DNA of 64,000 nucleotides from Verpa conica (taxonomy: Eukaryota > Ascomycota > Pezizomycetes > Pezizales > Morchellaceae). Below are positions 2,592 through 45,033 of the stretch, piece by piece. Position 1 is the first letter of the stretch, and each line of letters begins with the position of its first letter. The DNA is taken from NCBI GenBank assembly GCA_033030425.1, contig JAUFSD010000011.1:806001-870000 (forward strand). Direction: 5' to 3'. Made by a program: the position numbers and the translations under genes. The notes under the pieces are model-generated. The model ran no database searches and had not been told where the DNA came from. It was given only the letters and a program-made list of their open reading frames with translations.

Positions 2592-2617
2592 TGAAGAACA
2601 TTTTCACGGGTTGTTTG

Positions 2618-3013
2618 TCAGTGGTGCCCCCCCCCTTCCAGGCGGTACTTTGAACGCCTTGATAGTGCATCAGCCTTTCCATTTTTTGTTCCGGGTTGAT
2701 AAACGATTTTAAAATCGAACTCGGCAAGGTTTTCCGCCCATCGAGCCTGTCGCCTTGTGAGTTGCTTAGTGGTAGAGAAGTACTCTAGATTACGGTGATT
2801 GGTGTAAACGACTGCCATGTACCTAGCGCCTTCGAGGTATTGCCTCCACTGCTTGAATGCTACCACTATCGCTAACATTTCCTTGTCCCAAACGTCATAA
2901 TTAACTTCCGCCGGGACTAGTTTTCGTGAGTAGAAGGCGACAGGGTGTAACTTAGTGTCGATTTCTTGGAACAGGATGGCTGCAATCGCAAAGTCGCTGG
3001 CGTCCGTTTCCAT
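2618..3013 (-). pseudogene. Gypsy RNase H fragment
   Basis: The translation begins METDASDFAIAAILFQ, the gypsy RNase H block with the catalytic D in TDAS. It continues through the DKEMLAIV block and the W-RQYLEG stretch to the canonical end, GKADALSRR. The frame upstream (3014-3244) is broken by a stop, and downstream it terminates just before the copia insertion. It is part of the remnant at 2592-5886. Confidence 0.85.
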
Positions 3014-3244: not shown

Positions 3245-3541
3245 TCACCATTCCAGAATCGACGTGATTTTGATTTTGTCGTTTGCTATGGAGACACCTT
3301 CAGGGCCTAGCATATAGCCGAGGAACTCGATTTTCTGCTGGTTGAAAAAGGATTTTTTAGGATTGGCAACTAGGTTGTTTTCCCATAACTTCTGGAGAAC
3401 AATTTTGACTAATCGAATGTGTTCCTCTGCTGTTTTGCTATAGATTAGGATATTGTCAAGATAGACTACTATACCTTGGTTCAAGTACTTTCTGAGGATG
3501 TCGTTCATCATGTTCTGGAATGTTGCTGGTGCGTTCACCAT
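3245..3541 (-). pseudogene. Gypsy reverse transcriptase palm fragment with altered active site
   Basis: It begins at the NAPATFQNMMN block of gypsy RT and runs through the catalytic box to the FLGY block. The box reads YLDNILIYS where active enzymes have YLDD. The second aspartate codon GAT is AAT here, a G-to-A transition (C-to-T on the plus strand) that should abolish polymerase activity. The fragment ends at an in-frame stop near 3245. Confidence 0.85.
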
Positions 3542-3639
3542 GCCAAACGGTATTACTAAGTACTCGTAATGTCCATAGCGGGTCCTGAAAGCCGTTTTCT
3601 CTTCGTCCCCTTGTTTGATCCTGACGAGATTGTACCCCT

Positions 3640-4255
3640 TGTTATTTTTTTGAGATTCTCAGTCTGTCTTTTTTTAATTGTATAATATTTCATCTCCATT
3701 TGCTACATTTTATTACGATGACAGGTCTGATCATTTTCTTGATACATTTTTACATTTATTACATTTTTACATAACTACTAAAGTTTATCGAAGGTTGCAT
3801 ACCTTATTACTCACATGTATTGCGCCATTTGTTATGAGTCATATTTTGTTGCGCTCATTTATGTTTACTCAACACACCATTTCGCTTACAAGCATTGTAT
3901 TACTCATTTCTTTTGGTTACCTTTACTTTGTTACGGTTTTCAGGGTCAAACGGCTTTCCCACCTCGGTTTTCACATAGTTATCTTGGTTGGAGGATAAAA
4001 GACTTTTTCTGTATAAATAGCAGACCGTTCTCCCTCTTTTTGGGACAGTAATTCTCTAGACATAGACACCAATCTACTACGCTATCTTGTTTGGTATTAC
4101 ATGCTCAGAATCCTTGCCTGTCTGTTCTTTATAGTAATAGTTTATTCTGTTGCTACTACCAATTCACTGGCTTTACGCTTCTTTCTTTGCATCGTACCTG
4201 TAGAGTTATACCATTAGGACTTGCATCCTAAGCTGTTACTCCGCTATTCTTCACA
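3640..4255 (+). repeat. Solo LTR of the copia family, inserted in gypsy RT
   Basis: It has the same start, end and length as the LTR at 1976-2591. It is flanked by the 5-bp duplication CCCCT (3635-3639 and 4256-4260), so it is a genuine insertion later reduced by LTR-LTR recombination. Removing it together with one TSD copy brings the two halves of the gypsy RT together. Confidence 0.93.
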
Positions 4256-4260
4256 CCCCT

Positions 4261-4525
4261 GTTTTAGGTCTATCTTCAAAAAAATGGTAGAGCCGGATAC
4301 TCGATCTCTGAGCTCATCCATTAGGGGCAAAGGATACTTATGTTTGATAGTTATCCTGTTAAGCCCTTGGTAGTCGACGCAAAGTCGCAAGCTACCGTCC
4401 TTTTTCTTGACAAATAATATAGGCGTGCTGTAGGGCGACTTGCTGGGACGGATCTTACCTAGCCGGATCATTTTTTCCAAGTACTCCTTCAGCACACCCA
4501 ATTCCAATGCCGATAGATTGTACAC
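4261..4525 (-). pseudogene. Gypsy reverse transcriptase, N-terminal fragment
   Basis: The translation has the gypsy RT entry region: a KIRPSKSPYSTPILFVKKKD block, then LRLCVDYQGLNRIT and the first catalytic aspartate in FLKIDLKQG. It stops at the solo LTR, and the rest of the domain continues at 3541 on the other side. Upstream, the frame joins the protease segment through a stop near 4556. Confidence 0.87.
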
Positions 4526-4555
4526 TGGACCCCAAGTAGGCTTTGCGGTTGGATC

Positions 4556-5296
4556 CTAGTCTATGGCATGGTCATATAGGCGGTGAGGGGGCAACTCGTC
4601 GGCTTTTGACGGATAAAACACGTCAAGTAACTCGTGGTATTCCTTAGGTATTAGGCCTTCCAGCTGTTCCCTTTTGGTTAACTCACGGCTAACTGCTTCG
4701 ATTGATTGGGCTTTGGGATCTTCTGCCACACTCTCGTCATAGACTACCACCGGCTTATTAGCGGTACAAGCATGGAGACAATTCTTACCATGGAACTCAA
4801 GCCTTCCGTTAGAATGAAGCACTGGATTATGTTGTTGTATCCACCAGGCTGGTAGAATTGCATCAAAGTCTGCCGGGGTATCTGCAATTTCGAAGGATAT
4901 TTTGAATTGGTGCATGCTTTCTATCATTAGTATAGGTAATGTAAAGGCTTGTCCCGCGCCCGATGCCATTTTTCCATCAAATCCCATTATTCGGGCAGGG
5001 ACGTCTCTTTCCACCTTTGGGACATTATATAAGGAAACAAAACGCGAACTCAAAACCGGCCCTGTGGCTCCGGTATCCAACAATACTTTACAGCGTTTTA
5101 TACAATTAGAAAAACAAAAATCAAAGGTGGCAATAGGACGTGCTCCGTGTATCGGCTCCATCGCTTGTTTTTTCTTCGGGGTGGATTCCTCCTCCTCCGG
5201 TCTTTTTCTTTTAGAACTGTTTTTGGATTTTTCTCCCAGTGAAAGTGTTGCAATTTGGGGCAAATCTAGACCTGGGGGGTCTAGACGCCCTTCCAA
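4556..5296 (-). pseudogene. Gypsy aspartic protease segment with flanking linker
   Basis: A lysine-rich linker precedes a retropepsin-like domain whose active site reads CKVLLDTGATGPVLSS at about 5060-5095. An I-L-P-x-W-W block follows, typical of fungal gypsy elements. The C-terminal part (ELTKREQLEGLIPKEYHELLDVF) is the spacer before RT. The frame is interrupted on both sides. In an intact element it would mature the Gag-Pol polyprotein. Confidence 0.8.
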
Positions 5297-12824: not shown

Positions 12825-12832
12825 TCTTTGAG
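12825..12832 (+). repeat. hAT target-site duplication, left copy
   Basis: TCTTTGAG, identical to 22365-22372. LTR-B copies 1 and 2 contain it once only (reverse complement near 10222 and 22755), which gives the unoccupied site. Confidence 0.95.
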
Positions 12833-12849
12833 TAGTGTTCGTCATGGGG
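12833..12849 (+). repeat. hAT left terminal inverted repeat
   Basis: TAGTGTTCGTCATGGGG, exact complement of 22348-22364. A GC-rich subterminal zone (12850-13000) follows; it contains the block ATCGCCCCAAACCGCCCC that also occurs just inside the right TIR. Confidence 0.95.
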
Positions 12850-13097
12850 GGGCCGGTCCCCCAATTAGAGCGGGGAATCGTGCCAAGAAATCGCCCCAAA
12901 CCGCCCCACGGGCCGGGTAGGGTCTAAAATTTGACCCAGAACCGCCCCAAGCCCCGAACGGGGCCCTAGTCGAATTTCACCCCGTTGGGGGTACAGTGGG
13001 GCCCTACTGGGAGTAATATCTATAGGGGATCGCTTGGGGGGTAATACAGGGGATTGAACAGGACCCAATGGGGCACCGTACCACTCTCTGTAATCTC

Positions 13098-13275
13098 GGA
13101 GTATGTATTCCGGCGTATGTATTCCGGCGTATGTATTCCGGCGTATGGATAGCCTATATATTCTCACACGTGGGCGTATGGGTAGCCTATATATTCACAC
13201 GTGGGTATATGGATAGCCCATATATGCATCTGGTGGCGTATGAATGCCCTATTTATAGATATCGGCGTATGAATT
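13098..13275 (+). repeat. GGCGTATG cluster 1, subterminal left
   Basis: Six exact GGCGTATG copies plus variants, three of them in tandem as CGGCGTATGTATTC. It lies between the left end and the 3' end of the transposase gene. The long plus-strand reading frame over this zone is an artefact of the repeats. Confidence 0.85.
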
Positions 13276-13476
13276 GTCTCTCTACTAAAGCTACATGTAT
13301 TACTCCTATTGTACAAAGTTTAAGGCTCTATAGAGTAGCCATATCCCTATTGCTTTCCCTTCTTTTGTTGGCCTCTAAGAGAGTATCCTGTGTTTGTTCT
13401 CCGCCTCTTGGAGCTGCGGCTAGGCATTATTCGTGGTGCAACTGCAGATGTACTATGATTGATCTTTGGAAGTCAG

Positions 13477-16400
13477 TTAAACTATCGTGGCAATGTTTCG
13501 TGGGTGAAAACTTACTAGTTGTGTATCTGCCCCAGCTTTACCTGCAGTGGTATCATCCTCCGCTTTGTTATCCGCTTCCTCTGCGTGCTCCGGTCTCTCC
13601 TCAGCCTCATCCTGATAGCCGTCCACCGACTCTATAGCATTTATTCTCTCCCGAATTGTCTCATCGATATTACCAGTATCCTCCTCTTCTTCTGCTCCTT
13701 TTTCATCAGCACTATAACCCTCACTCATGCTACTTAATGAGTCGGTATCATCACCACTTTGGGCCCCATCTAGATCAACTCTATCCACCCAGTCATTCTC
13801 TTGAACTATGGTAGAGGTATCCTCATCGGAGTCGGTAGTAGAGACTTGGGCTATTTGCTTGCCTTTGCCTAAACCTCCTACTCTAGGCTGCCTAGACTCC
13901 GTATACTGAGACTGAACTAGCTTAGGAGGAAGATTAGTTGATGCATCACGATCGAAAGCACGTTCTCCATTATCATCAACAAAACTCCAATCCGTATCCT
14001 GCTTGGAATCCTCATCATCATCAGATATATAGACTGAATGTGGGCTTTGTCGCTTTTGTAAGAAATGCTCAAAATCAGCTTGTAATGCCCGCTTTTCTAG
14101 CTTGATTGAATCAACAGTCTCATTTTCATCCACTGCCTGTATATCTCCGGCTATCTCCGCCCACTGGTAGAGCTTCACTATCATAGAAGCCCGGATCGAC
14201 TTTGGCTTCATACGATTCCGTCTGTATGGAAGCTGATCTCTAGCGACATTAAAGACACGTTCAACTTCAACACCATTAGCAGGAACTGCAAGGATATCTC
14301 TCGCCATTCTTGCTAGGTTAGGCAAGCTTGTAGAGGTAAATTTCCAAAATGGTAAGAGATTCGTCTCGTAAAATATCCCCTGTGGTCGATCAGGATCGAT
14401 ATCTTTGTCGCTAGCTGGCTCAAGAGATTCTATTTCGGGTGGGGAATCAATGTACTGAATTTCTTCGGTAAGCCGAGAGGTTACTGTTGCTTCTGTGGTA
14501 GGTCGTGGTTTAAAGCCCATACGCCGGCGTATAATAGGATCTGCTTGCGCTGCAGTTGTCGGGGGTGGGGCATAGTGCTTCTCAAAATAATCAAGGAATT
14601 GGCGGCGGTAACTGGTGGTATAGGAGCCAGGACTAGCAGGATCGTTGCCCTCAATGCTATCCCATTCCTTATAGAGAGAAAGCTTTTGGTAAGGATTGAG
14701 ACATGTAGCTAGATTGAGAAAGGTGCCTCGTGGATTCTCCGTTTTGCTGTAATAGTCCTTAGCTTTAAGAAGTGCTTTATTCAAAGCAGCTTTGATATCA
14801 GTTTTCCACCTCATCCTCTTTGGTTCAAGCTTGTCTATTTGCTCCTCAATATGATCAAATATCTCCTGATAGACTTCAAAGACTCGGTGGATAGTGACTC
14901 CGTGTGTCTTTGACATCCAAAGGGTCCAAAAACGAATAGGTGCTAGCACTTCTAGAATATACTCGACTTGAGATATTAGATTGGCTTCAATATCGATGAT
15001 AGATATGCTTACTTGCTTCCACTCATCGGGGGTTGACCAAATCACTTTGAACATCGGATACTGCTTGATCCATTCCTTTGTAAATTCTCGCATTCTCAAC
15101 GCCCGCTCCAGCATCTCTAGCGTCGAATTCCACTGTGTTTTGATATCGTGAATTAAGGTAACAGGGATTATAACTCTTCCATCCTGTAGATTGAGGAAGT
15201 GTTCACACCGCTGCGGTGATGCCCCTACAGTAATGGAAAGCTTTCTATGCTAAAGGAAGGTTAGCTTTGACTTCGGGGTATGATTTCTGGCGTCTGTATG
15301 CTGGCGTATGTATTCCGGCGTATGTATTCCGGCGTATGTATTTCCCTCGCAGGAGTCCTCGGTTTGTACAAGATTTGCTTACCTTCTCAATTGTCTTATA
15401 AAATCCTTTCTCTAAGCCCTGTACCTTACTAAGATATGTGTCTTTAAACCCCGATGGCACTTGCTCTTCTTTAGTCTTTATCTTCAATTCCTTCATGAAG
15501 GCTGCAAGAATTAGCTGAATGACGTGTGCCATGCATGGGATATGATATGTCTCGCTATCCCAATCGATTGATAAAAGTTGTAATGCCGAAGCGAGGGCTT
15601 TACTGAGAGTACTGTTATTGCTAGCATTATCAGAAGTGAATCCAAGCAACTGATCTGCGATATTGTAGCGGTGTAGTACGTCTTCAATAATTAGGGCGAG
15701 GGTCAGACCATTGTGCTTGCCCTTGATATGTTCAAAGCCTATTAGTACCTCTTGCAGCTCCCAGTTATCGTCAATGTAATACCCAACGACTGCTAAAAAC
15801 GCTAGCTTATTTGGTGACATCCATGCATCGACTGCTATAGACACCTTCACTCCAGTAGGGATATTACTTTTGATATCATCAGATGCTTTATCGTAAGCGG
15901 CAAAAAGAAGACGAGATAGAGTTGAGGGGGAGGGAATGAGTATATGCTGATTTAAGTAACGGAACATCTTGCGGAAAGCTACGTTGTTCGATGCATTGAA
16001 AGCAAGATTTACTGCAAGCATTCCGTAGAGGAAGGTCTTATCGTACTCTGCCTGGCAGAAAGTTTCAGGTACTTCAACATCCTTTGTTTTGTTGCGAGGT
16101 TTGGTCTATTCTATAGAGATTAGCGGTGTGCGCATAAGGGGCTAAGCATCCGGCGTATGTATGGCGGCGTATGTATGTCTATACAGTACGCTGGGGGGGA
16201 CTTTTGTTCTTTGCATACCTTTGTTCCTCGAGTAAGAAGCTCCTGGATAGTAGGAGATCCCTCAATGAATCCCTTCTCTCGACGTGATCTCAAGCATCTT
16301 CGTGTTTGCGAATGGTCCTTCATTGTACTTGTGCCTCCTGTAGCTGGGTGTGCAACAAGAGTGTGGCAGATGACACATTGAACGGCTGGCCACCCATCGG

Positions 16401-16859
16401 GCTCTGCCAAGGTTCCTGAGCCTGCCTGTGCACACTGAGCAAATCGGCTCCATACCTCCGATCCTCGAAGGTGCGAGTTCCAGTGGATTTTTTGCCTTTG
16501 TATTTAGCCATGAACTTTTCGAATCCTTCTGTAGTCTCCCACCATGATATCCATGAATCGTGATAGCTTTCATCGTAGATATACTGCCCATTGACAACCC
16601 CAAACGGTAGGTTGCTCACTGTACTAGGCTCAATCTCGGTCCTCAGGACTCTTGCAGCAGGGGTTGGAGTTGGAGGGTCGGTGTTCGAAGAAGGGGAGTT
16701 AAAAGAGGATAGTCTCGGGGTAGTAGGTTTTGTATTATTGAAATGGGTTAGCTTGTTACGCCTAGACCCAAATGGTGCTAATGAGCTTTGAACCAGAGAA
16801 TGGGAACCTCGAGCACCTTGTGCAGAGCTCTCACCGGGGAAAACTGGAGTTGAAGGCAT
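13477..16859 (-). CDS. hAT-family transposase with BED zinc finger
   Basis: It would cut and reinsert the element by binding its ends. Three exons are inferred: 16859-16219, 16105-15383 and 15249-13477, separated by GT-AG introns of 113 and 133 bp that join in phase. The total is about 1,045 aa. Exon 1 has a low-complexity N-terminus and then a BED finger at 16460-16330: SEVW...F, CVIC, then H-x5-C. Exon 2 starts the RNase H-like catalytic core, with candidate catalytic aspartates in AVDAWMSP (about 15830) and TSDNASNN (about 15640). Exon 3 begins with the KTQWNST block and includes the hAT C-terminal dimerisation region (about 14375-14150, motif NGVEVERVFNVARDQLP), then a long acidic, Ser-rich tail. 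The BED frame and the N-terminal frame disagree by one base at a run of six A (16488-16493), so this copy may be frameshifted. The start ATG at 16859 is the first in the frame. Confidence 0.9.
15286..15345 (+). repeat. GGCGTATG cluster inside transposase intron 2
   Basis: Three exact copies and one variant lie wholly inside the intron 15250-15382. In the sense strand of the gene they read CATACGCC. Confidence 0.85.
16148..16180 (+). repeat. GGCGTATG cluster inside transposase intron 1
   Basis: Two copies lie inside the intron 16106-16218, in the same plus-strand orientation as the other left-side clusters. Confidence 0.85.
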
Positions 16860-17514
16860 GATATCAGAAGTAATGGATAGAGCTGTGGATAGAGAGTATG
16901 GGAGAGATATAACTGTTACTAGAGACTACCCCTTATATACATTCTCTCGCTGTAGAGTCAGTACACAAATATTAGTGCTGGCGTATGTATCGGCGTATGT
17001 ATGATTGTGTCTATACTCTACTGATACAACTGACCAAAATCGAGTGACAACTTATGCAGGTGAATACAGCTCTCACAGCTCAATAGGTGCTTGCTTGCTT
17101 GCCTTTCGATTTCAGTCAGCCTGGCAGTCTCTGCTAATTTGCGGAAGTCAGTGGCGCAACCAAGTTAAGGGTCTGCAGCCGGAAGGACTAACCACAATAA
17201 GTCTATCCTAAGCGAAAACATGCCTGTTGCTTTGACAAAGGCGTTCTGGTAGTATAGTAGCGACCAAGTGCATAGGCTACGCTAGGGCACCTGCAACTAG
17301 GGAGTTAACGGAAAGCTTATTGAGGAGTTTTTAGGCGTATGAATGGCTGAACGGCGTATGTATCCGGCGTATGTATTCCAATTGAGTATCCCGTGGTATA
17401 TACAGCTTCAGCTTTATTGGCTCCATAGTGATATATATAATCATGGTAGCCCTTCACTACTCCTGCCCCGTTAGGAGCTTTGCATATAGACGGCACTTAT
17501 CAATATCCTCCGCA
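16860..17514. promoter_or_regulatory. Divergent spacer between transposase and 162-aa gene
   Basis: It must hold the promoters of both genes. It contains two GGCGTATG clusters (16978-17003, two copies; 17333-17377, three copies). No other recognisable signal is seen. Confidence 0.5.
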
Positions 17515-18056
17515 ATGTCTTCATCCCCGCAGCTTCAATCTGCGCAAGTCCCCGAGCGATTCTACTTTAGCGACCTATTTTCTCACGTCCATACTATCAG
17601 TCATGCTGCTTCTCCACCTAGCCCAAAGGTTGAACTTCCCCAATCTCCGCTAGCTGTAGCTATCCAGCACCAGGATAATGATTGGGAGCGTGGATCGTAC
17701 GATCTTGAGAGACCTCACCCGTACAGTAGAACAAGGGTTAGAATCATTTGTAAGTACTTTCAGGCATTCATACAGTCAACGGAGCCTAACATGATTTTGT
17801 AGACGATCCAAACTTTGATTTTGACCTCCCACATAAGCCTCCGAAGCTATCCCACCAATACAAACTAGTTCTTTATGAAGGTAGTGGTGCTGGTTACTGT
17901 GGTATTGCCCTCTCCCGAAATGGCTACAATCATGGACGTATCGCTTTCCATAAAGAAGAAGGCAATCGCTTCCTACAAGCGTTGAAGGCATCTATTGATT
18001 TGCACGTTACTGTTCAAAAGCTGGAGATTAGAACCACGAAAAAGGGTACAGGGTGA
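17515..18056 (+). CDS. hAT cargo protein of unknown function, 162 aa, two exons
   Basis: Exon 1 is 17515-17749 and exon 2 is 17803-18056. The 53-bp intron has a GTAAGT donor and a TTTGTAG acceptor and joins the frames exactly. The ATG chosen (MSSSPQLQ) follows a short leader; the frame is open further upstream without another good start. The first half is Ser/Pro/Gln-rich and likely disordered. The second half looks folded (YKLVLYEGSGAGYCGIALS, GRIAFHKEEGNRFLQALKA), alternating beta-strand-like and helical stretches. I recognise no family. Its position between transposase and acidic protein, with GGCGTATG clusters on both sides, suggests it belongs to the element and is not a passenger fragment. 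Confidence 0.7.
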
Positions 18057-18109
18057 TTGCGGGGAAGGCTTTCTTAGAGTTTGTTTTGTGAGGCTTTGCG
18101 TAGCTAGAA

Positions 18110-18180
18110 TAGGCGTATGTATCCGGCGTATGTATGTCTCATTTACTCAATTCGGCTTATGTATCCGGCGTATGTATCAA
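18110..18180 (+). repeat. GGCGTATG cluster in the convergent gap
   Basis: Three exact copies and one variant (GGCTTATG) lie between the 3' ends of the 162-aa and acidic-protein genes. Confidence 0.85.
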
Positions 18181-18323
18181 TAAAGACATAATTTTCGAGC
18201 CCCTAATAATACACAAAATCGATAATAATATAGATACAAAATCTAGCTGTGCCCAGCTCCTACTAGTAGTTAGTAATGACAAAAGCATAGACAGAGAATG
18301 TATAGACCACCAACCCTTTTTTG

Positions 18324-19220
18324 TTAAGCAGAATCATCACGTACACGCGAAAACCTTTCAGCCCTTTTTGCCTCCTGCCTCAGCCCTTCCTCCTCGAAAG
18401 ACCTGAGGAGTCGATAGAATTGACGTTCTCGGAGGTCCTTCAACTCTTCAGAAGTGTACACTCTTACATTGATGTCCTCCAAATCGTCACCTTCTATGTC
18501 ATCACCGGCATTCTCGTCCTCCTCCTCTGCCGCACCATCGGCCGTATTTTCCTCCTCTTGCTCATCCTCATCATATTCATCCTCGGTATCCACACCGTCA
18601 AAATCAAACAGCTCACCCGTCTCGTACCCATCATTCGTTATGCTGTCTTCCTCATCTATCAAGCTATCTGCCACTGATAGCTCACTGTCTATATTATCCG
18701 TCTCATCATTATCTGAATCAGCACCCCCCCCTTCGCTACTATCCTCCTCTGTTGGCTCATAGTCCATATCATCAACGTCGTCGCTATCGTCATTATCGTT
18801 TGATGATACTTCCCGACTCGTAGGGATTACTACCGCAAAATTCACTGTCTCCTTAGCAGCATGCGCACTCCTGAGTCTAGATACTGTTCTTGCTGGGCTA
18901 GGAGTGTTGTTTTTGGCGCTAAACTCCCAAAAGATCTCTTCACGGTCGTTCTGGTAAACCTCCTCTTCATGAGCCCTTATATTATCTTCCATAGCCTTCT
19001 TCTCTGCTTCGGTGGCTGCGTTGTACTGATCTGTCTTCCGCAGCTTCTTTAGTTTAGAAGAAACACGGTTCCCACGGTTTGCTCTTGCCCTTTCGTACTC
19101 TGCAGATAGTGGGCTCAAAGCACAACGATGTCTATTCCTAGCAATTGTTTCAGCATTCATGGACGATCCACCTTCACCACCTGGAAGGGTACTGAAGTTC
19201 CTAATGGGGGCTCGAGGCAT
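18324..19220 (-). CDS. hAT cargo acidic protein, 298 aa (possible histone chaperone)
   Basis: A single-exon gene. I take the ATG at 19220 (MPRAPIRNFS) as the start; an upstream in-frame ATG at 19316 lies among the GGCGTATG repeats. Residues 1-80 are basic with a predicted coiled-coil/helical region (YERARANRGNRVSSKLKKL). The middle, about residues 140-255, is a long Asp/Glu/Ser-rich acidic domain (for example EDEYDEDEQEEEN). The C-terminus is a charged helix (SEELKDLRERQFYRLLRSF). I recognise no domain family. Long acidic tracts are common in histone chaperones and other nuclear proteins, and the gene shares a divergent spacer with the H3-like gene. A chaperone role is therefore a reasonable but untested inference. 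Confidence 0.75.
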   Translation of the reverse strand: MPRAPIRNFSTLPGGEGGSSMNAETIARNRHRCALSPLSAEYERARANRGNRVSSKLKKLRKTDQYNAATEAEKKAMEDNIRAHEEEVYQNDREEIFWEFSAKNNTPSPARTVSRLRSAHAAKETVNFAVVIPTSREVSSNDNDDSDDVDDMDYEPTEEDSSEGGGADSDNDETDNIDSELSVADSLIDEEDSITNDGYETGELFDFDGVDTEDEYDEDEQEEENTADGAAEEEDENAGDDIEGDDLEDINVRVYTSEELKDLRERQFYRLLRSFEEEGLRQEAKRAERFSRVRDDSA

Positions 19221-20141
19221 GATGACGGTGTATGAATCGGCGTATGAATTGGTACAGGGGGTGACCTTGTGGGGTGTACAAAATGGGGTGTGAAGAGGGT
19301 ATGAGTGGAGCGACACGTAGAGTAGGCTTGGATGGTAGGAGGTAGGTAGTGATTAGGAGGCAGGAGGTGGGGTTGTGTTTGCGACGTATGTTTCCGACGT
19401 GTGTTTCCGACGTGTGCTGCGGCGTGTGCTGCGGCGTGTGCTGCGGCGTGTGCTGCGGCGTGTGCTGCGGCGTGTGCTGCGGCGTGTGCTGCGGCGTGTG
19501 CTGCGGCGTATGATTGCGGCGTATGATTGCGGCGTATGATTCAACTTATTGTTTGTGAAGCTGCTGGTTCGTAGGTGTTTACCCTTAGTGATAACCGTTC
19601 AATGAGGGGTAATTAATAAATATGCAAATAAGGGTGCTCAGGCCGCTGATTATATCACTATAGAGTCATTGAGTGATGTCATATATTGATTATCTCGTCA
19701 TAGTGCAAACATTAAAGCAGCAAACCTGATTCTTCACCTATAGAAAGGCATATATAACCGAATTGAGACGCACTAAGACTCTCGTGGAAAGTGGAAGCAG
19801 GGTAAAGAAGCCTCTAGGGGATGTTCCTTGGAAGCAATAGTATGTGAGAACTGACATGATTGGATTATATATAGGGGGGCTCTTCACCTTCGGAGTCTCT
19901 TTTCCACCATTCCCTTCTCCTATCACTCTCAACACCACCTACCCCACTATCACCACCCCCCCTCCAATCTCAACTCCATCCATGTTCACGATTTCCATTA
20001 CCTACTCCACTTCCAACTCTACCACAAGCACCACAACCTTCACATCTACCGGCACTACTATCAGTGCTACCACCTGCACCACATCCTCCTCCTCCTCTTC
20101 CTCTAGCATCTCCATCACCCCTCCCCCCCTACCAGTCCAAA
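19221..20141. promoter_or_regulatory. Divergent spacer between acidic-protein gene and H3-like gene
   Basis: It contains a GGCGTATG pair (19227-19246), the 12-bp tandem array (19380-19545) and, for the H3-like gene, a TATA-like TTATATATAG near 19865. A long C/T-rich leader (about 19885-20140) runs up to its ATG. The layout is that of a shared bidirectional promoter. Confidence 0.55.
19380..19545 (+). repeat. 12-bp tandem array GTGTGCTGCGGC flanked by GGCGTATG units
   Basis: About eight nearly identical 12-bp units, bordered on the left by GACGTATGTTTCC-type units and on the right by three GGCGTATGATTGC units. The unit is clearly a drifted GGCGTATG-type repeat. The minus-strand reading frame of Arg-Ser-Thr repeats here is a by-product, not a gene. 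Confidence 0.9.
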
Positions 20142-21432
20142 ATGGCTCGTACTAAGAAAGCTCCAGTCAAAAAGTCTCTCCACAATGCCGCAATGGAACG
20201 CCCACCCAAAACCGTCATGTTCAATAGTAATGGTTCCAGGCCATGCCCCAATCGCGGCCCTTTATCAGGATTCAGGAGGGTTTACCCCAAACCTGTGGCA
20301 GGCGGGATCCGAAAACCTGCTAAATATAAGCCTGGGCAAGCAGCCCTTTTAGATATATATAACCTACAAAGGGGTGTCGATTTGCTTGTACCACGGCATG
20401 CTTTCGGGAGACTTGTCAGGGAAATCTTGGAAGATCGACACAAAGGCCTACGTTGGCAGGCTGCAGCAGTGGAGGCTCTCCAGTATGCTACTGAGATGCA
20501 TACAATCATCAAACTGAGCAGTATACTCCCTGTTTCTATCTATCTATCTATTGATATTCTCTCTTATACTAATATAGATTGTAGTGGGTCAAGATGTAGC
20601 CTTTCATGCGAAACGGAAGACTCTCATGTCAAGAGACCTCCATTTGCTAGACAGACTGAAGGAAAAGGAGAGTTCAGGTCTAAAGACCGGTGACAATGGA
20701 AAGCCTACTGCTCCAATGCCTGAGACGCGGAATCCCAAGCCTGCTGCCAAACCTACTACAAGGCGTGGAGCAAAATCAGCAGCAAAACCAGCAGCAAAAC
20801 CAGCAGCAAAACTCACTGGCGTCAAAAGCCGCAACACATCAACCGCCACTAAAGCCACTGCACGCCGGTCCTCTCCTCCTGGTTACGAGTCTTCTTTTGA
20901 GCCCTCTTCCTCTTCCTCCTCTTCTTCTTCTCCTGCTGCTTCTCCTGCTGCTGCTTCTCCCCCTGCTTCTCCTACTCCTTCTCTTACTGTTTCTCCTACT
21001 CCTAGTCCTCCCCCTTCTCGTGCTGCTTCTCCTGCGTCACCTCCTGCTTCTCCTACTCCTAGTCCTCCCCCTTCTCATACTGGCACTCCTGCCTCCCCTA
21101 CCCATGAGCGTACGGTCAACAGAAAGACTCCCGAAACCGATATAGATATAAGCCGATCTATTCCTCCTCCTCCTCCTCGTGCTGGCACCCCTGCCCCCCC
21201 TACCAATGAGCCTGTAGTCAACAGACAGACTCCCGAAACTGATATAGATATCAGCCAATCTATTCCACTGCAGCAAGGCACACCCACCCACGCTGACGAG
21301 AGGAGAGACCACAGTGTGCTCCCCGGGGAACAGAGTACTCCCCCCAGCAATGATACTTACGATCAACCCACCAGTACAGCACAGCCTGGTACCCCCGGCC
21401 ACACCAGTGATACTTCAGCACAAATCAGCTAG
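20142..21432 (+). CDS. Histone H3-like protein with long C-terminal tail, hAT cargo (408 aa)
   Basis: Exon 1 is 20142-20520 and exon 2 is 20585-21432; the 64-bp intron joins them in phase inside the long alpha-2 helix. Residues 54-152 align with canonical H3 from Gly33-Gly34 to the end of alpha-3 without a gap, at roughly 40% identity by eye. Landmarks are YKPG, RLVREI, LRWQ, AVEALQ, HAKR and SRDLHLL. Loop 1 has canonical H3 length, not the longer CENP-A form. Counterparts of H3 His113, Arg116, Asp123 and Leu126 are kept. The N-terminus keeps Ala-Arg-Thr-Lys, as in H3K4, but the tail is 20 residues longer and Lys36 is Arg. After the fold comes a tail of about 255 residues: AAKP repeats like linker histones, then Ser/Pro repeats and a duplicated TPETDIDIS module (about 21130 and 21235). 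It probably enters nucleosomes with host H4. Confidence 0.92.
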
Positions 21433-21438
21433 GGCTAG

Positions 21439-21480
21439 CAATCATACGCCGGAATCATACGCCGGAATCATACGCCGGCT
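21439..21480 (-). repeat. CATACGCC cluster after the H3-like gene (reversed orientation)
   Basis: Three tandem copies of AATCATACGCCGG. This is the first cluster in the reverse orientation; every cluster from here to the right end is reversed. Confidence 0.88.
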
Positions 21481-21734
21481 AGCCTTATGGTACTTGTTAC
21501 ACACTGTTATTGTATCTTGATATCTCGTTGTGTTAGGATTAGGCAGAGGAGGCATACCTTTTAGGTTTCCATATATCTTTTAGGCTTTGATATATCTTAC
21601 GTTCTTAGGTCTGCTAGGTTCTCGTTTTTCCTTGGGTTTTCATATCTCTTTAGGCGGCAGGCGTTTCAATATTTCAGGTAAGCATTCATATCTCTTATCT
21701 CCATCTGCCGTATCCACATGCTTACTTGATTAGA

Positions 21735-21815
21735 GATATATCATTCTATTGGGCGAATCATTCTTGTTGGGCATAATCATTCTTATTGGGCGTAATCATT
21801 CTTATTGGGTGTTGG
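21735..21815 (+). repeat. 20-bp tandem repeat, four degenerate units
   Basis: Units like AATCATTCTTATTGGGCGTA recur four times with one or two changes. The zone 21481-22100 around it has no gene. Confidence 0.7.
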
Positions 21816-21959
21816 TTTTTCCTTTTTGGCAGCTGTATTCTTTATGGGCTTCTCTATTACGTAGATTTGCAGAGTTGGTAGGAATTAGGGTAGTGGTATA
21901 TTAGGAAGTGTACTGTACGTTTTAGGCAAGCAATAGTAAATTTATTGGGCTATTCTTTT

Positions 21960-22062
21960 ATTCAAACACTGGTCTATTCATACACCGGTCTATTTATACG
22001 CCGGTCTATTCATACGCCGGTCCATTCATACGCCGGTCTATTCATACGCCGGTCTACGGGGC
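21960..22062 (-). repeat. CATACGCC cluster, subterminal right
   Basis: Five units of about 18 bp (CATACGCCGGTCTATT and variants), three with the exact octamer, in the orientation opposite to the left half. Confidence 0.88.
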
Positions 22063-22347
22063 GTGAAGCCACTCCATAAGCTACAGCCTAAGCGGTATCA
22101 TTTCTATGTGTCCCTACATGATTTCCAGTAGCATGGTCGATGGGCCCCTATCGGTGCACCGGCATGCTCATTCTTTGGTCGATATAATGCAGGGCCCTAG
22201 TAGGTTCCCCGGAGAAATAAGAGCAGGGAACCGCATGGCGGACCCCTGTGTGGGGAATCGCCCTGCGCGGGGCGGGTTTTTAGACAAATATTTAACCCCG
22301 AACCTGTCTTGGGGCGGTTCCATAATCTCAGGAATCGCCCCAAACCG

Positions 22348-22364
22348 CCCCATGACGAACACTA
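22348..22364 (-). repeat. hAT right terminal inverted repeat
   Basis: CCCCATGACGAACACTA, exact complement of 12833-12849. It is preceded by AATCGCCCCAAACCG, shared with the left subterminal zone, and followed by the TSD TCTTTGAG (22365-22372). Confidence 0.95.
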
Positions 22365-22473
22365 TCTTTGAGATAGCTACTAGGCTTAGCCTGAAACCTC
22401 CCCCTACCACAATTTATCCACTAGATAAGTACCGAGCAGTGCTTGTACTAAACTAGTGTGTGATTGTGTTACA

Positions 22474-31402: not shown

Positions 31403-34400
31403 TTACATCAAGCTACTTCTCCCTCCCACCTCAGTGCTACCCTGTCCAGTCGGCATCTCTCCATTCCTCTGCCCGACAAACTCTGTATAAATTGCCTCTA
31501 ACCTCTTCCTCTCATCTGGTGCTATACTTGGGCGCGTAGTGTTCAACGAACTTTCAACGTGATCCCACGTAATCATAACCTCCATTTTCCCGTCTCCATC
31601 AAGTGCATTTTCCTCCTCCTCTGCGGCTTGGAAGGCTGTATCTTCCTCCGAAGGGGTGAGGTTACGGAGTCGCTGATTCTTCTTGAGGGCTTCGAGCTGT
31701 ACCACGCTAATCGTTAGTGGTGGGTGGGCAAATGAGCTGGGAATTAGATATATACTTTCTCCATAAGCACTAATCTCTCTTTTAATACTCTTTTTCCCAC
31801 CACCCCCTCTTCAACCTTGCCTTTCCCTTTGCGACTATCACCCCACACAAATTCTAGAAATTCGACCTCCTCACTTCGCTCCTTCTCCTTTTCGTCACTG
31901 CTACCTTGCTCCTCTCGTTTACGCACCTCCTCCCCAATCATTCCCTGAACCGCCTCAAGGTGCGCATTATAGAGCACTGCCTGTAAATCAGCCCCTGAGA
32001 ATCCTTCAGTCCTCCTCGCTAGCTCCCGAAGATCAACAGAATGGTCGATCCGTAGCATGCCGTCACCAACAATAGCCTCAAAGATCTCGAGTCTATCCTG
32101 CGCATTCGGCATATTGCATAACAACGATTTATCCAATCTCCCCGGACGTAGTAGTGCAGGATCGATGAGATCCGGCCGCGATGTAGCAGCAAGAACATAC
32201 ACCCCATCTAATCCCTCTGCCCCGTCCATCTGCGTCAGCATCTGGTTCACCACACGGTCGGTAACACCAGTACTGTCGTGGCCTCTCTTTGGCGCGATAG
32301 AATCGAATTCATCGAAGAAAAGCACACATGGTTTCGCGCCTGAAGCTCTTTCAAATAAGTCTCTCACGCTCTTCTCTGACGCACCGATATATTTATTCAG
32401 GATTTCCGGACCCTTCACGGAGATAAAATTGAGACCGCACTCTCCAGCTACCGCGGAGGCGAGTAAGGTTTTACCACAGCCAGGGTATCCGTATAGCAAC
32501 AGCCCAGAACGGAGGCGGAGAGGACAGGATGCAAAGATAGGTGCATATTTCGTTGGCCATTCGAGTGTCTCCAATAGTATCTTCCGTGTCTCAGTGAGGC
32601 CTCCGATATCCTTCCATCGTGCCCCAGAAGTCTGCAACTTCACGCCACGAAGGCCCGCAGGGACAAAGCCCTTTAGGGCAGCCTCAAAATCAATTCTACG
32701 CAAAATAAGGGCTTCCTGAGAAAGTCGATTCTGACCAGCATCAACCATACGCACCACAGCCTCGTGTCTAGCCCGCCCAACGAGTAGGACAAGATCACCA
32801 GGCATATACCCCTCCGTCCTTGCCGCGATGTCTCTCAAATCCAACCCTTTTTCGAGTACCCCATCTTTACCAACCACACCGTCAAGAACAACCCTTCTTC
32901 CCTCTTTGCTCATCGCTTTCAAACTCACAATCTCCCTAAACACGTGCCCGCCAATGACAAGATTGTGCATGCTCTCCTTCGCCTGGCAACTTCCTAGTAC
33001 CACTACCCCTCTTTTCACTCCCCCGCCGCCAGAGGATGTATATTTCTTGACTGCGGCTACCACCACCTCTGCAATCTGCCTTACGCGAGAATTATCCTGG
33101 TTCTCGGATTCCGACGCACATAGCCGGTCGAGATCATCCAGCAGGACCACTGTCTTGCCACTTTTCCCTGCTGTCCAAGCAGCTTCGTTAAACCAGCGAG
33201 AAACTAGCTCTTTCACTGTTCCAACCCGCTCTTCCGCTATCTTTGAGAGTGAGCCGGGATCGATGATACGGTGGAAGTGGGGGGAACCAGAGAGACGTTT
33301 GGCAATTAGACGGAGTATGCTTGTTTTTCCTGATCCGTGAGCACCTGAAAGGAGAACTGAAGAGGAGGAGAGGAGGTTAGTAGTTATGTTATTGAGAATA
33401 TCATCGACCCCCACAATCAGTGTCTCTGTTTCTTCTGGTATGAAGATCGTCTCGCTTTGTTCTTTCAGCGTAGTCGGCTTTGGAACGGGGGTGCCAAGCT
33501 CTAGAGGAAGACGCTTATCAGTCGCAAGAAACCATTTTATGGCTGCTGCAGAATCAGTGCCATCGGTGGAGGTGAGTTCGATCCGCATGATGCCACCGGT
33601 GGTGATAGGGGAGTCTTTAACGGCAGGAAGAACCAAGTTATCCGTGAGCGCACCCTCGAGAATGTATTCTCCGGGGGAGATCGCGCTCTTATCTTCCTCG
33701 ATCATTGCCTTAGTTCCATTCCGCTGTCTTCTCGGGCCAAGAACTTCTTGGAGTCTCGCAACTGCCATGTCTTCAAGTCTTTTCGTCCCCCCACCCCATT
33801 TTAACCCTGCATCCTTATCGACACCTTGAAAAGGGAATACTTTGATTTTTGCAATGTTCTTGGCAGGAATTTGCGGGGGAGCTTGCTCGATACGAATCAT
33901 ATCCCCCACTTGCCCCGGGACCAGGTGAAGAGCTGCAGATACAAGTCGGGAGAGTGCGATATGTGCACCATCGGGAGCAGACGACCACTGCTTAACAGCA
34001 GCTATGATCTTGATCGCTGGTACAGCCTCTGGGGCAGCATCCTTCTTATCCTTCTTATCCTTTTCATCCGGCTGCTGGGCCGGTGCTTGGGAGGGGTCTA
34101 GTGGGGGTGCAAGACCTGGAGGCCTAACGACCGAGACAACCACATGTGATATACCACGGAGCTGATGGGACGAGAGTAGCATCGTTGGATCAAGATAAAC
34201 CGAGAGTCCCTTTCCACCCTCCCTAATCTCCTGCTCTTCCTCGTTGTCTGGGTCGTCTTCATCATCATCCGTCTTCAGAGTGTATCGGAGCGCTGGTAAT
34301 GACACAGCCCTTAGAAACAATGCATTCGACGATGCAGCTGTACCTTCACTTTTTTTTCTCCCTGAGGTTGTCTTTGTGCTAGTTGCGCTTTTCGCACCTC

Positions 34401-35302
34401 TGCTAGGCCTTCTCTGGCGGGTTTTCGGGGCAACAACAATTTCTGCATCCGGTGAAATCTTTGCAAATCCATTGGGGGAGGAGAGGGCAGATTCAGGCTC
34501 AACCTTGGTTAAGCGGATTGAAGCGGTAGAGGTGGGAGATAGGTAGACGCTGATTGGGTGTGCAGGTGAAACGCACCGAATCTGAGAGATGAGGTTGAGC
34601 TCGAGAAAGTTTGCGTGGAGCTCGATAATCTCCCAGTCGCTGGGAGTTAGGGGCTCTATGTGGAGGGTGTGCGCTGGAGGTGGGTCGAGATGGAGGTGGA
34701 GGGAGACCTGGAGGGTTCACGGTTTTTCAGTAGATAATTCATACTCTCACGCTATTAAAATAGTTGTGAGTACGGGTAGTATCCATAGCCTTACGGCTAC
34801 ATTTTATAGGAAAAGGGATGATAAAAGAAATGAGCGAGTTAAAAGAGGGAAGAGTATTGGAGAGAGAGAGAAAGAAAGAAAAAAAGGGGGGGGGAGGGAA
34901 GTGATAATGAACAGGGTGAGAAGAGATGGGGAAGATATCTAGTGAGCAGTAGCCTGTTACCTTGGACCCTTCACTCAAGCCAACGTTCCTAGCGAACGCA
35001 GGGTCCATCTCGACGATTGCATCTTCTGCTCTGCCTGCCCCTGGTGTATGCTTCCTCTTACTCGACATACCCGTCCATCCGGCATATGCATTTCTCGATG
35101 TGCTTGTTGTACCAGAACTGGGACTTGAGGTTGTCGTCCGGAAGGACAGCTCGACAACTACATTTTGGGCGGGAGTGTTGCTGTTGGCGAGGACATTGAC
35201 GAGAGAGGTTGGAAGATTTAGAAAACAGTTTTTTAGGGGGGTCAGGGAGACAGTTGCGGGGGTCGCAGGGGGGGAGGGTTTTCGTGTAGCAGCGTGGGGC
35301 AT
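31403..35302 (-). CDS. PEX1: Peroxisomal biogenesis AAA ATPase Pex1
   Basis: With Pex6 this type-II AAA ATPase forms the hexamer that pulls ubiquitinated receptor Pex5 out of the peroxisome membrane. Exon 1 (35302-34961) encodes the N-domain start with CFLNLPTSLVNVLA and AYAGWTGM; a 253-bp intron follows (34960-34708, phase 0), then the long exon from 34707. Domain D1 has Walker A GAHGSGKT and Walker B VVLLDDLD. Domain D2 has GYPGCGKT, VLFFDEFDSIAPKRG and the second-region block RPDLIDPALLRPGRLD. The C-terminus (31705-31403, ending EVGGRSSLM) is the conserved Pex1 tail. It is in another frame, so a further intron lies between about 31850 and 31690; its exact sites are not resolved. Total about 1,180 aa, normal for the family. 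It is divergent from MCM7 with an 841-bp spacer. Confidence 0.95.
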
Positions 35303-36143: not shown

Positions 36144-39031
36144 ATGGCACTGCTCCCGACTACGAAGCTGAATGTCGATTACGACAATCAGCAGGGTATG
36201 TCCCCCCCTATCATTGACTAAAGCGCCTTTCGTTCACAATGATACAGCTGCTTTCCAATCATTCCTCAAGGACTTCAAGAGCACAGCCGTCACGGAAGCG
36301 GATGCCCGTGATGCGTTATCGAATCTGAACATGGAAGATGAGGACGAGGATCTAGACCTCGGCGACACTCCCGGCCGCCGGACTACGCGATCAGGCGGGA
36401 CGAGGAAACGTGGTGCAAGAGGATCAAGAGCTGTGATACAAGAACCGAAGCTCAAGTATATGATGCAGCTACAGGAGATTGCAAATAGAGAAAGGGATTC
36501 CATCACTATTGAGCTAGATGATTTGAAAGAGGTATATTTCAACCTATGATTCTGTTTGTTTTATTTTTCTTTAATCCACCGGACACTGGTGTGTGGGAGT
36601 TGACTTCTTTATTTCTTTATTTCTTTATTTCTTTACCTCTTGGCTTCTTTCTCATGAAATACTTCAGCCTGTGATTACCTTTTATTCCCTTTCCATTTTT
36701 TGACCCACTAACATGAACGCAAAGACAATTTTTTGCTTTTTTTATTAAAAAAATCTGCGCGGAGAGGGCTAACAAGAAAACACAGTTCGAGGAGGGATTT
36801 GTGGTTGATGAACCGCTGAATCTTGTCTCGTCAATAAACAAGAACTGTGCTCATTACATCGAAATATTCTCCCGAGCCATTGACAATGTCATCCCATCAG
36901 AGACCCTCGAAAACACGTATGACTACTGCGTCCCCACTATGTCCTACTTCTTTGCTAATTTCTCCTAGATACAATGATGATGTCCTTGATGTCATCCTCA
37001 CACAGCGCCGTAACCGCAATGTCGCAGCTACAGACTCAAATGCCGATCCTCTCTCACTCGAAACTGCCCCCCAGCTCTTCCCCGCGCTCCTCACACGCCG
37101 CTACCAGGTCTATTTCAAATCTCTTACTCCCTCAGGCGAATCAGGCACAAAGGCGATGGCTGTCCGCAATGTCCGCGGTGCCCACCTCGGCCACCTCATC
37201 ACTGTCCGTGGTATCGCTACTCGCGTCTCCGATGTGAAGCCAACTGTCCTAGTAAACGCCTACACTTGTGACCGTTGTGGCTCTGAAATCTTCCAAGAAA
37301 TCAAGACAAAGTCCTTCGCTCCACTTGTCGACTGTCCTTCAGACGAATGCAAGAGCAACGATGCCCGCGGCCAGCTCTTCATGTCAACTCGTGCCTCCAA
37401 ATTTCTCCCTTTCCAGGAAATCCGTATACAGGAAATGTCCGATCAAGTTCCTGTCGGTCATATTCCCCGCACTCTAACTGTTCATGCCCACGGCTCTCAA
37501 ACACGTACAGTCAATCCCGGTGAGATCGTTGACATTGCTGGCATCTTTCTACCTACCCCTTACACCGGCTTCAAGGCAATCAAGGCAGGTCTCCTTACAG
37601 ATACCTACCTCGAGGCAATGCATGTAGAACAGCACAAGAAACAGTATGATGACATTGTTATTGACCCACGCACTGTCCGTCGCATTGAGGAGCTCCGTGC
37701 CGCTGGTAATCTCTACGATACTCTTGCCAAGTCTATCGCCCCAGAGATTTACGGGCATGAGGATGTTAAGAAATGTCTCCTCCTTCTCCTGATTGGTGGC
37801 GCAACAAAGGAAATGGGCGACGGTATGAGAATTCGTGGTGACATAAATGTCTGCCTCATGGGTGATCCCGGTGTAGCCAAATCCCAGCTTCTCAAATATA
37901 TCTGCAAAGTCGCTCCCCGAGGAATCTATACCACTGGTCGCGGCTCTTCGGGTGTCGGTCTCACCGCAGCTGTCATGCGTGACCCCGTCACTGACGAGAT
38001 GGTCCTTGAGGGTGGCGCACTGGTCCTCGCAGATAATGGTATCTGCTGTATCGACGAGTTTGATAAGATGGATGACTCCGACAGAACGGCGATCCACGAA
38101 GTAATGGAGCAGCAGACAATCTCTATCTCGAAAGCCGGTATCACCACCTCGCTAAACGCACGCACTTCTATTCTCGCTGCTGCAAACCCGTTATATGGAC
38201 GCTATAATCCCAAGATCTCACCAGTAGAAAACATCAACCTTCCTGCTGCTCTGTTATCCCGTTTTGACATCCTTTTTTTGATCCTTGATACTCCCAGTAG
38301 AGAAGGCGATGAGGAGCTAGGGCGACATGTCACGTTCGTGCACATGGAAAATCGTCATCCCGATATGGACTTTGAACCGCTAACGCCCACCGAGATGCGG
38401 ATGTATATTGCGCAGGCAAGACAGAAGAGACCGGTTATTCCGAAGGAAGTTGCTGATTACATCGTCGGGGCATATGTTAATATGAGGAAGAGTGCTAAAA
38501 AGGCAGAGAGTGAGAATAGGTATGCCCTGTTATTTTTTTTCTATTGGGGGCCCCTATTCACTTCTTTCGGGAATATAGCTAACTTCCACGGGTAATGATA
38601 GACAATTCACGCATGCATCCCCTCGTACCCTTCTCGGCATAATCCGTCTCTCCCAAGCCCTCGCACGTCTCCGTTTTGCCGATACCGTAGTCATCGAAGA
38701 CACAGATGAAGCATTACGTCTGATTGAGGTATCAAAAGCGTCATTATACGGAAAGGATGAATGGGATGAAGATAATACTGTGAGCTCCAAGATCTACAAC
38801 ATTATCCGTACCTTGGCATTTCCTGGAGGCGCAGCGGGTGATGGAAATGGCGAGCTTAATATGAGAGTGGTAAGGGATCGTGTATTGGCAAAAGGATTTA
38901 CAGATGATCAGCTGGCCGAAGTAGTGGATGAGTATGCTGCCCTGGATGTGTGGCAGGTGGCGGGTGAGGGGACAAGGTTGGTCTTTGTGGGGGGTGATGA
39001 TGAGGAGGCGATGGATGTAGATATGTCTTGA
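36144..39031 (+). CDS. MCM7: DNA replication licensing helicase subunit Mcm7 (815 aa)
   Basis: Subunit of the Mcm2-7 replicative helicase, nuclear. Five exons join in phase to 816 codons: 36144-36195, 36248-36531, 36786-36916, 36969-38519, 38602-39031. The start [13 protein letters not shown] matches the Mcm7 N-terminus. An acidic, Arg-rich insert follows, then the zinc ribbon (CDRC ... CPSDEC, about 37266-37350), the conserved Mcm7 run [12 protein letters not shown] and [14 protein letters not shown], Walker [10 protein letters not shown], Walker [11 protein letters not shown], and the arginine finger [28 protein letters not shown] opens the last exon, which carries the winged-helix C-terminus. 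No defects are seen. Paired MluI boxes upstream fit G1/S expression. Confidence 0.96.
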
Positions 39032-44708: not shown

Positions 44709-45033
44709 TGAAAAACAACAGACTAAGTGTGTAGATAATAAGATAGAGCAAAGAACAAACTTGATTGATACCTAAGAAAAGACGCAGGAAAAGCCTGCTT
44801 ATATAGTTACAAATCTGCTAACATAGAAAACATTCCGTAATCCCAAATACAAAATAAAAGCCAATCCGTTGCCATACAATTCTTCCGATGCTCGGATAGA
44901 ATTTCCTTCCATCGGTCATACTGTTCCCCTGCCTGGTTACCCTGCCGGACCATCCGGGATTCTATTCCTCCGGTGTTGCCACACCCCGTATTCGTCATAC
45001 CTTTAACTTCACAGAGTATCACTTATTCCAACA
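44709..45033 (-). repeat. 3' LTR of the full-length copia element (left side)
   Basis: On the minus strand it starts TGTTGGAATAAG and ends GTTTTTCA. Confidence 0.94.

Follow-up and report, generated by a model that had tools for sequence, protein, structure and literature searches.

Histone H3-like sequences carried by hAT transposons have been described in two groups of fungi. In Pyrenophora tritici-repentis, the hAT element reported by Manning et al. 2013 (PMC3538342) is about 5.6 kb long with one central ORF, is present in 10 long and 16 short copies, and carries an H3-like gene (H3L) that is described as neither H3 nor CenH3 and for which ESTs were reported, together with a further ORF of unknown function; an effect of H3L on chromatin was already raised there. 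In Pseudocercospora fijiensis and other Mycosphaerellaceae, hATs with H3-like sequence occur as hundreds of RIP-inactivated copies with one to two H3-like copies each; the published description identifies neither further domains nor any direct or inverted repeats (Dhillon et al. 2019, PMC6710886). An earlier note on the DNA analysed here knew of no described fungal hAT element with a histone gene, a statement that these two publications contradict.

The element studied here spans 9,532 bp (12833-22364) of a 64,000-nucleotide stretch of Verpa conica DNA, hereafter the window. As in the H3-carrying hATs described in other fungi, its H3-like gene lies inside the terminal inverted repeats (TIRs) and is copied with the element. 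Like the Pyrenophora element, it has TIRs, the dimerisation domain of hATs, at least one further ORF and an H3-like gene that is divergent and has insertions in its N-tail; unlike that element, as far as its description goes, the Verpa element is 9.5 kb long, has two further genes, two full copies and a long H3L C-tail, and contains motif arrays. With the Mycosphaerellaceae elements, as described, it shares a length of about 9.5 kb, an 8-bp target site duplication (TSD), a hAT domain and H3-like sequence inside TIRs, whereas an open H3 core, four genes and the lack of an evident CpA-type RIP bias set it apart. Protein searches with H3L and the transposase named no match for the species of the published elements. 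New here are the very divergent H3L with its altered tail, the arrays of the motif CGGCGTATG, and two further genes that were detected in this genome nowhere but in the element.

The ends of the element are those of a hAT transposon. The 17-bp TIRs (TAGTGTTCGTCATGGGG) are perfect matches at both ends, while none of 100 shuffled sequences contained two or more matches at up to 3 mismatches, and the 8-bp TSD TCTTTGAG flanks the element on both sides. Two sister copies of the flanking repeat (window 23054-22653 and 10522-10122) each contain one TCTTTGAG and no element, with 402 and 401 of the 600 joined flank bases aligning at 95%. All of these features had been proposed from the sequence in the earlier note and were confirmed, as was the transposase, whose C-terminal dimerisation domain, together with the 8-bp TSDs and short TIRs, places the element among the hATs. 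A BED zinc finger gave no Pfam match in the transposase, and in the relative P0128 the zf-BED match (0.0031) was below cut-off. Besides the transposase, whose gene has two predicted introns, the element encodes H3L, an acidic protein and a small protein, gene 2 (Table 1).

Table 1. Features of the hAT element and its borders (window coordinates).
Feature	Position	Strand	Remarks
Left TSD (TCTTTGAG)	12825..12832	.	present once at each of the two empty sister sites
Left TIR, 17 bp	12833..12849	+	exact
CGGCGTATG array, left subterminal	13097..13271	+	7 sites at <=1 mismatch
hAT transposase exon 3	13477..15249	-	dimerisation domain (Dimer_Tnp_hAT, PF05699, 4e-13, over cut-off)
Transposase intron 2 (predicted)	15250..15382	-	4 CGGCGTATG-like sites
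Transposase exon 2	15383..16105	-	basis includes relatives
Transposase intron 1 (predicted)	16106..16218	-	2 CGGCGTATG sites
Transposase exon 1	16219..16859	-	frame broken by 1 nt in A-run near 16487
CGGCGTATG sites, transposase/gene 2 divergent spacer	16979..17373	+	5 sites
Gene 2, 162 aa	17515..18056	+	exons 17515-17749 and 17803-18056; intron 17750-17802
CGGCGTATG sites between gene 2 and acidic gene	18111..18174	+	4 sites
Acidic-protein gene, 298 aa	18324..19220	-	one exon
CGGCGTATG/CGGCGTGTG array, acidic gene/H3L divergent spacer	19226..19538	+	13 sites
H3L exon 1	20142..20520	+	N-tail, alpha-N, alpha-1, alpha-2, by alignment
H3L intron (predicted)	20521..20584	+	GT..AG, 64 bp
H3L exon 2	20585..21432	+	loop 2, alpha-3, then C-tail
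CGGCGTATG sites, right subterminal	21443..22051	-	8 sites, opposite orientation
Right TIR, 17 bp	22348..22364	-	exact
Right TSD (TCTTTGAG)	22365..22372	.	

Introns had been claimed for two of the three additional genes, and indeed H3L and gene 2 have one each. The frames, which had been called clean, are less so: the C-terminus of gene 2 is shifted by 1 nt near 18043, relative to the second copy of the element and to the relative P0156, and the transposase is also broken in exon 1. At both positions the second copy is one base longer than the window copy, and the two 1-nt shifts are possibly assembly errors.

This second full copy, which was found by a protein search with H3L and was not listed by the DNA search with the whole element, occupies a different locus, is flanked by a TSD of its own (AGTATATC) and contains the same four genes, so that the four genes moved as one unit and inserted independently at two sites. 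This supports the reading of the earlier note that a hAT carries H3L and two more genes, and shows the four to be mobile as a unit. That two TIR copies merely happened to enclose a cluster of host genes, a reading for which no support was found, is refuted by this second insertion and by the empty sites at the first locus, and its probability is practically nil. The four-gene block was found nowhere in this genome outside a TIR pair. Copies of the family without the additional genes, which the earlier note had considered, do exist, but those seen were all short TIR pairs (184-437 bp) or a 3'-end fragment; TIR pairs were present in 14 of the 18 loci examined, with an exact TSD in 2, a TSD with one mismatch in 1, and none in 11.

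Judged by its sequence, H3L keeps the H3 histone fold, as it matches the Pfam Histone family (PF00125, 8.3e-20) and H3 chains in the PDB (2e-20). Its core is identical to host H3 at 37 of 93 residues, and the identities are concentrated at what we take to be the structural sites of the H3 core (27/47, compared with 10/46 elsewhere; Fisher p 6e-4). H3L lacks the near-invariance of canonical H3: in a tree built by a quick method, for which 4 of 112 rows were set aside because they lacked the core start pattern, its end branch is the longest among 108 H3-type rows (2.13 vs a median of 0.099). Of 327 candidate relatives scored, 109 reached E <=1e-5, those inspected being ordinary H3s or H3s with extensions, and P0014 came closest in the core, with 45% identity across 95 columns; no relative was confirmed in viral contigs. 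An identity as CenH3 was rejected, since H3L has the same identity (38/96) with the CENP-A-like protein of the host as with host H3, and does not contain the loop 1 insertion that is present in the CENP-A-like protein. In the N-tail the MARTK end (K4 context) is kept, the ARKS sites (K9, K27) are absent and K36 is replaced by R, while the C-tail of about 253 residues is basic in its first part and then rich in P/S/T.

The reading that we tentatively prefer, at a probability somewhat short of even, is that of a large hAT family in which H3L, the acidic protein and gene 2 are resident genes acting on the chromatin of the element itself. A strong rival, which we consider rather unlikely, is passive transduplication, in which capture placed an abundant H3 transcript between the TIRs, where it has no function for the element and diverged by drift. 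Capture is how both published cases were described (PMC3538342, PMC6710886), and Manning et al. thought drift of their H3L possible. The H3L intron lies at none of the three host H3 intron positions, which is compatible with an intronless captured copy. Comparison of the two copies does not show constraint, as dN/dS is 2.41 for the whole of H3L (0.61 for codons 1-155, resting on 3 changes), 0.40 for the acidic gene, 0.75 for gene 2, and 0.56 and 0.83 for transposase exons 3 and 2; these ratios are uninformative and partly speak against resident genes. In the assembly the transposase frame is intact in neither of the copies, and the H3L tail of the second copy is shifted by 2 nt. The H3 core, however, is open in both copies; from drift one would not expect an H3 fold that is still open at 40% identity and whose matches cluster at structural sites. 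For the two neighbouring genes, no source was found in this genome.

Searches located the acidic gene and gene 2 solely inside the two element copies, gene 2 having been searched for with P0156, which covers its exon 2; captured host cargo was therefore rejected as their origin in this genome, and the label of cargo is doubtful. The acidic protein consists of a helical N-part, a stretch (residues 126-245) with 52 D/E and 1 K/R, and a C-terminal helix. It has no family match, and a single-sequence model is confident for the helical part (block means 91-93 over residues 51-80) and of low confidence in the middle. No sequence match was obtained for gene 2, which has a single relative, 79% identical along half of the protein; its AlphaFold model, based on two sequences, has a pLDDT of 51.6, and against the PDB the best of 1,152 matches was PURA (E 0.041), with 0 at E <=0.001. 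Pfam recognised no DNA-binding domain in either protein, and relatives sought in genome contigs (query P0120) and in viral contigs (query P0156) were not confirmed.

Classical RIP is not evident, with CpA accounting for 28 of 141 transitions and CpG for 64. Differences between the two copies affect 71 of 789 CpG positions and 91 of 8,619 other positions, an excess that is compatible with CpG methylation. The CpGs within the motif are not significantly better kept (7/125 changed vs 64/664 of the other CpGs, p 0.17). CpG decay is not clearly a peculiarity of the element: the observed/expected CpG ratio is 0.72 there and 0.75 in the rest of the window, and of the transitions between the flanking repeat copies 4/17, 5/14 and 6/17 are in CpG.

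Among the 9-mers of the element the motif CGGCGTATG is the most frequent, with 24 exact sites and none in the remaining window; the 45.8-Mb genome contains 174, of which 47 lie in three element copies. The exact sites are non-coding in 23 of 24 cases (p 9e-9; by clusters 10 of 11, p 7e-4), and their orientation is + over 13111-19538, with one exception in a transposase exon (14518), and - from 21443 onwards. Two other hATs of this genome, 3.1 kb in length, lack the motif, and in the hAT loci L064-L066 our scan found no TIR/TSD pair and no 9-mer above 4 copies. A comparable arrangement is known from VANDAL21 of Arabidopsis (Hosaka et al. 2017, PMC5735166; Sasaki et al. 2023, PMC10398659), in which VANC targets are likewise short element-specific motifs in tandem in non-coding sequence including introns (PMC5735166), with a repeat number that varies between copies as it does for CGGCGTATG. 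VANDALs are MuDR-type elements encoding VANC proteins (DUF1985/DUF287), in whose description there no histone gene is mentioned, and the element proteins scanned here gave no DUF1985 or DUF287 match in Pfam. Other DNA transposons, some of them hATs, act on an epigenetic mark through a gene that they carry, which encodes an enzyme for 5-methylcytosine and not a histone; the hAT-like locus L069 may be of this kind, and it has its own tandem array, unrelated to CGGCGTATG, so that arrays alone do not imply an H3L.

Subterminal repeats of hATs are binding sites of the transposase and change orientation between the two ends. The CGGCGTATG arrays could be such sites, unrelated to H3L, which we regard as possible at clearly below even probability and which would be compatible with H3L as a resident gene. 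The orientation flip between the two parts of the element favours it, while the presence of arrays in internal spacers and introns does not; moreover, ends without the motif seem to be mobile, since the 14 short TIR pairs contain no CGGCGTATG site at <=1 mismatch and three of them have the exact or one-mismatch TSDs noted above, though another transposase could have moved them. By a further alternative, H3L would act off the element as a decoy in trans, occupying host H3 chaperones or tail-modifying enzymes and weakening silencing in general. Its divergent fold, intact MARTK end and long, initially basic C-tail are in keeping with such a role, which leaves the element-specific arrays unexplained and appears improbable.

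The idea of the earlier note that the element marks its own chromatin, which is part of the resident-gene reading that we prefer, is in keeping with the tail of H3L and with the motif arrays as they appear in the sequence. H3L, if expressed, would pair with host H4 and enter nucleosomes on the element. Without ARKS sites and with R at K36, these nucleosomes would be unable to carry the usual silencing marks, and the element would thus stay open for expression of the transposase. The acidic protein may be a histone-binding partner, and the CGGCGTATG arrays in spacers and in both transposase introns may be the address for a DNA-binding protein encoded by the element, either gene 2 or the transposase. 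In its complete form, a transposon that builds its own chromatin from an H3 that takes no marks at K9, K27 or K36, loaded by an acidic chaperone at an address read by a protein of its own, the proposal is unlikely to hold in every part.

Transposons are known to counter silencing by enzymes and by sequence-specific factors (TET/JBP, VANC), and a selfish element bringing along a nucleosome of its own would, if true, represent a different route against silencing. In that case the H3-carrying hATs of several fungi would be examples of a single anti-silencing strategy instead of captures by chance. Even if H3L were inert, a divergent H3 whose fold is kept while its silencing sites are dropped, carried by an element with motif arrays of its own, makes the question of why hATs carry H3, left by the 2013 and 2019 papers, directly testable.

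The hAT element (see the table) is bounded by two exactly matching 17-bp terminal inverted repeats (TIRs), and none of 100 shuffles gave two or more matches at up to three mismatches. It is flanked by the target site duplication (TSD) TCTTTGAG, and the flanking repeat (putatively an LTR, named LTR-B in the earlier note) has two sister copies in the window that carry a single TCTTTGAG and lack the element, with 95% identity to its joined flanks over 402/600 and 401/600 bases. Thus, the TIRs, TSD and two empty sister sites claimed in that note are all borne out.

Features of the element, of the remaining window and of a further hAT locus (L069, locus coordinates)
Feature	Position	Strand	Remarks
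hAT element	12833-22364		two 17-bp TIRs
Transposase	16859-16219, 16105-15383, 15249-13477	minus	three predicted exons; hAT dimerisation domain, 4e-13
Gene 2	17515-17749 and 17803-18056	plus	
Acidic gene	19220-18324	minus	
H3L (histone H3-like)	20142-20520 and 20585-21432	plus	Pfam Histone, 8.3e-20
Frames with PEX1-type and MCM domains	31744-34716 and 36838-38595		probably host genes
Copia-type retroelement	44709-49892		326-bp end repeats, 99.4% identical; two abutting open frames
L069 features of interest	1617-2528 and 3518-5068		
L069 tandem array	2599-2887		26-bp x 11

Contig C8 holds a second copy, 10,086 bp long, in which both TIRs are present (one mismatch in the right TIR) and all four genes recur; its own TSD is AGTATATC. 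The four-gene unit has therefore transposed, and the H3-like gene and two further genes claimed as cargo belong to a real four-gene hAT that moved as one unit. Neither assembled full copy has an intact transposase. In particular, a one-base change within an A-run interrupts the frame of transposase exon 1 in the window copy, and a further one-base shift affects gene 2 close to its end; at both places the C8 copy is one base longer, and these shifts could be assembly errors. Of the clean frames and introns ascribed to the further genes, the predicted two-exon structures of H3L and gene 2 held, but the frame of gene 2, as assembled, did not. In the C8 copy, the transposase is interrupted by 621 bp of inserted sequence, has lost 1 bp and has a stop in exon 3; the H3L tail has gained 24 bp and lost 2 bp, so that the protein is 292 residues long. 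The 621-bp insertion (38% GC) sits at the place corresponding to window 15917; AGAGTT at its start and immediately after it is a possible target duplication, and its first and last 30 bases contain no inverted ends.

The two copies differ at 162 of 9,408 aligned bases, with 141 transitions. Differences fall on 71/789 CpG positions and 91/8,619 others, where counting a CpG in either copy inflates the CpG rate. CpA-type RIP is not evident between them (28/141 transitions in CpA versus 64/141 in CpG), and the CpG bias would agree with cytosine methylation at CpG. However, CpG observed/expected is about equal in the element (0.72) and the remaining window (0.75), and CpG transitions also make up 4/17, 5/14 and 6/17 in flanking repeat copies.

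Further relatives in the genome, whose counts are lower bounds, comprise a 3'-end fragment on contig C10 (88%) and short TIR pairs. A TIR pair spanning 184-437 bp is present at 14 of 18 short loci, with an exact TSD in 2/14 and a one-mismatch TSD in 1/14. These MITE-like pairs (L042-L058) share the TIR and, at most, some 91 bp of left-end and 69 bp of right-end sequence; the absence of matching TSDs in 11/14 is odd for hAT insertions.

The H3L core aligns to host H3 without gaps (identity 37/93), and H3L is 38/96 identical both to host H3 and to the host CENP-A-like protein, whose loop 1 insertion it lacks. In a tree of 108 rows built by a quick method, its end branch measures 2.13 (median 0.099) and its placement is unsure. 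At 47 structural positions, which we take to be the DNA-contact, H3-H3' and H4-facing positions of H3, H3L equals host H3 in 27, versus 10/46 elsewhere (Fisher p 6e-4). The N-tail keeps MARTK, has R at the K36 position and contains no ARKS. Beyond the fold come some 70 residues enriched in K, R, A, P and T and then 183 enriched in P, S and T; the intron position differs from all three host H3 introns.

As for the other products, residues 126-245 of the acidic protein contain 52 D/E against one K/R; this protein has a confidently modelled helical part and no family match; from its charge, one might guess at a histone chaperone. For gene 2, whose structure is modelled at low confidence, a single relative reached E <= 1 out of 18 scored candidates: P0156 (79% identity over half of the query, covering exon 2); a search of this genome with P0156 gave no match outside the two full elements. 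With 612 residues of transposase exons 2-3 as query, 46 relatives were found at 1e-10 among 7,999 scored candidates, the closest of these sharing about 46-63% identity along part of the query, those in Penicillium canescens and Aspergillus niger 30-32%.

The commonest 9-mer of the element, CGGCGTATG, occurs exactly 24 times within it and 0 times in the remaining 54 kb of the window. Its genome count is 174, below the 197 of a reversed control word, so the word is not in itself frequent; of these 174, the two full copies contain 24 and 20 and the C10 fragment three. Allowing one mismatch, 43 of 45 sites in the element are non-coding (non-coding DNA is 40% of it), in 7/9 non-coding intervals, the empty ones being the introns of gene 2 (53-bp) and H3L (64-bp). 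Up to 19538, exact sites are in plus orientation apart from one within a transposase exon (14518), and from 21443 they are in minus orientation. Several indels between the full copies lie in the motif arrays, and CpGs in the motif are not significantly better kept between them. No exact site occurs in two 3.1-kb hATs of the genome (both flanked by an 8-bp TSD, with frames of 532 or 533 residues), nor any at up to one mismatch in the 18 short loci. A further hAT, L069 (G000:C5:1214500-1224000; dimerisation domain 3.8e-12), has its own array unrelated to CGGCGTATG, so the H3L element is not alone in having an array. L069 may end at 825 and 6070, where the TSD would be the palindrome CTAATTAG; a gene beside it weakly matches Pfam Tet_JBP (E 4.7e-5; 23.1 bits, under the cut-off of 34.9), and hATs carrying TET are described from rust fungi in passages of PMC12730594. 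In Arabidopsis, according to PMC5735166, the VANC targets of VANDAL21 are tandem repeats in introns and upstream of genes, a likeness to the CGGCGTATG arrays in layout, not homology.

The earlier note was not aware of any histone-bearing hAT described from fungi; such elements had been published. Indeed, Manning et al. 2013 (PMC3538342) report a 5.6-kb hAT from Pyrenophora tritici-repentis in which a central ORF and a divergent H3L accompany the transposase, and consider chromatin effects of H3L as a possibility. Dhillon et al. 2019 (PMC6710886) report 9.5-kb hATs in Pseudocercospora fijiensis and H3-like repeats in five further Mycosphaerellaceae, inactivated by RIP. Neither a dispersed motif array nor an acidic gene is noted for H3-carrying fungal hATs in the parts covered of the literature, which was searched under other terms than these two features and includes few subscription papers. 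Collectively, the H3-carrying fungal hAT is an already known kind of element, of which that of Verpa conica is a variant. Passive capture is a strong rival explanation; the reading that we judge best supported, as yet unproved, is that H3L, the acidic gene and gene 2 form a resident chromatin toolkit, acting on the element's own chromatin.
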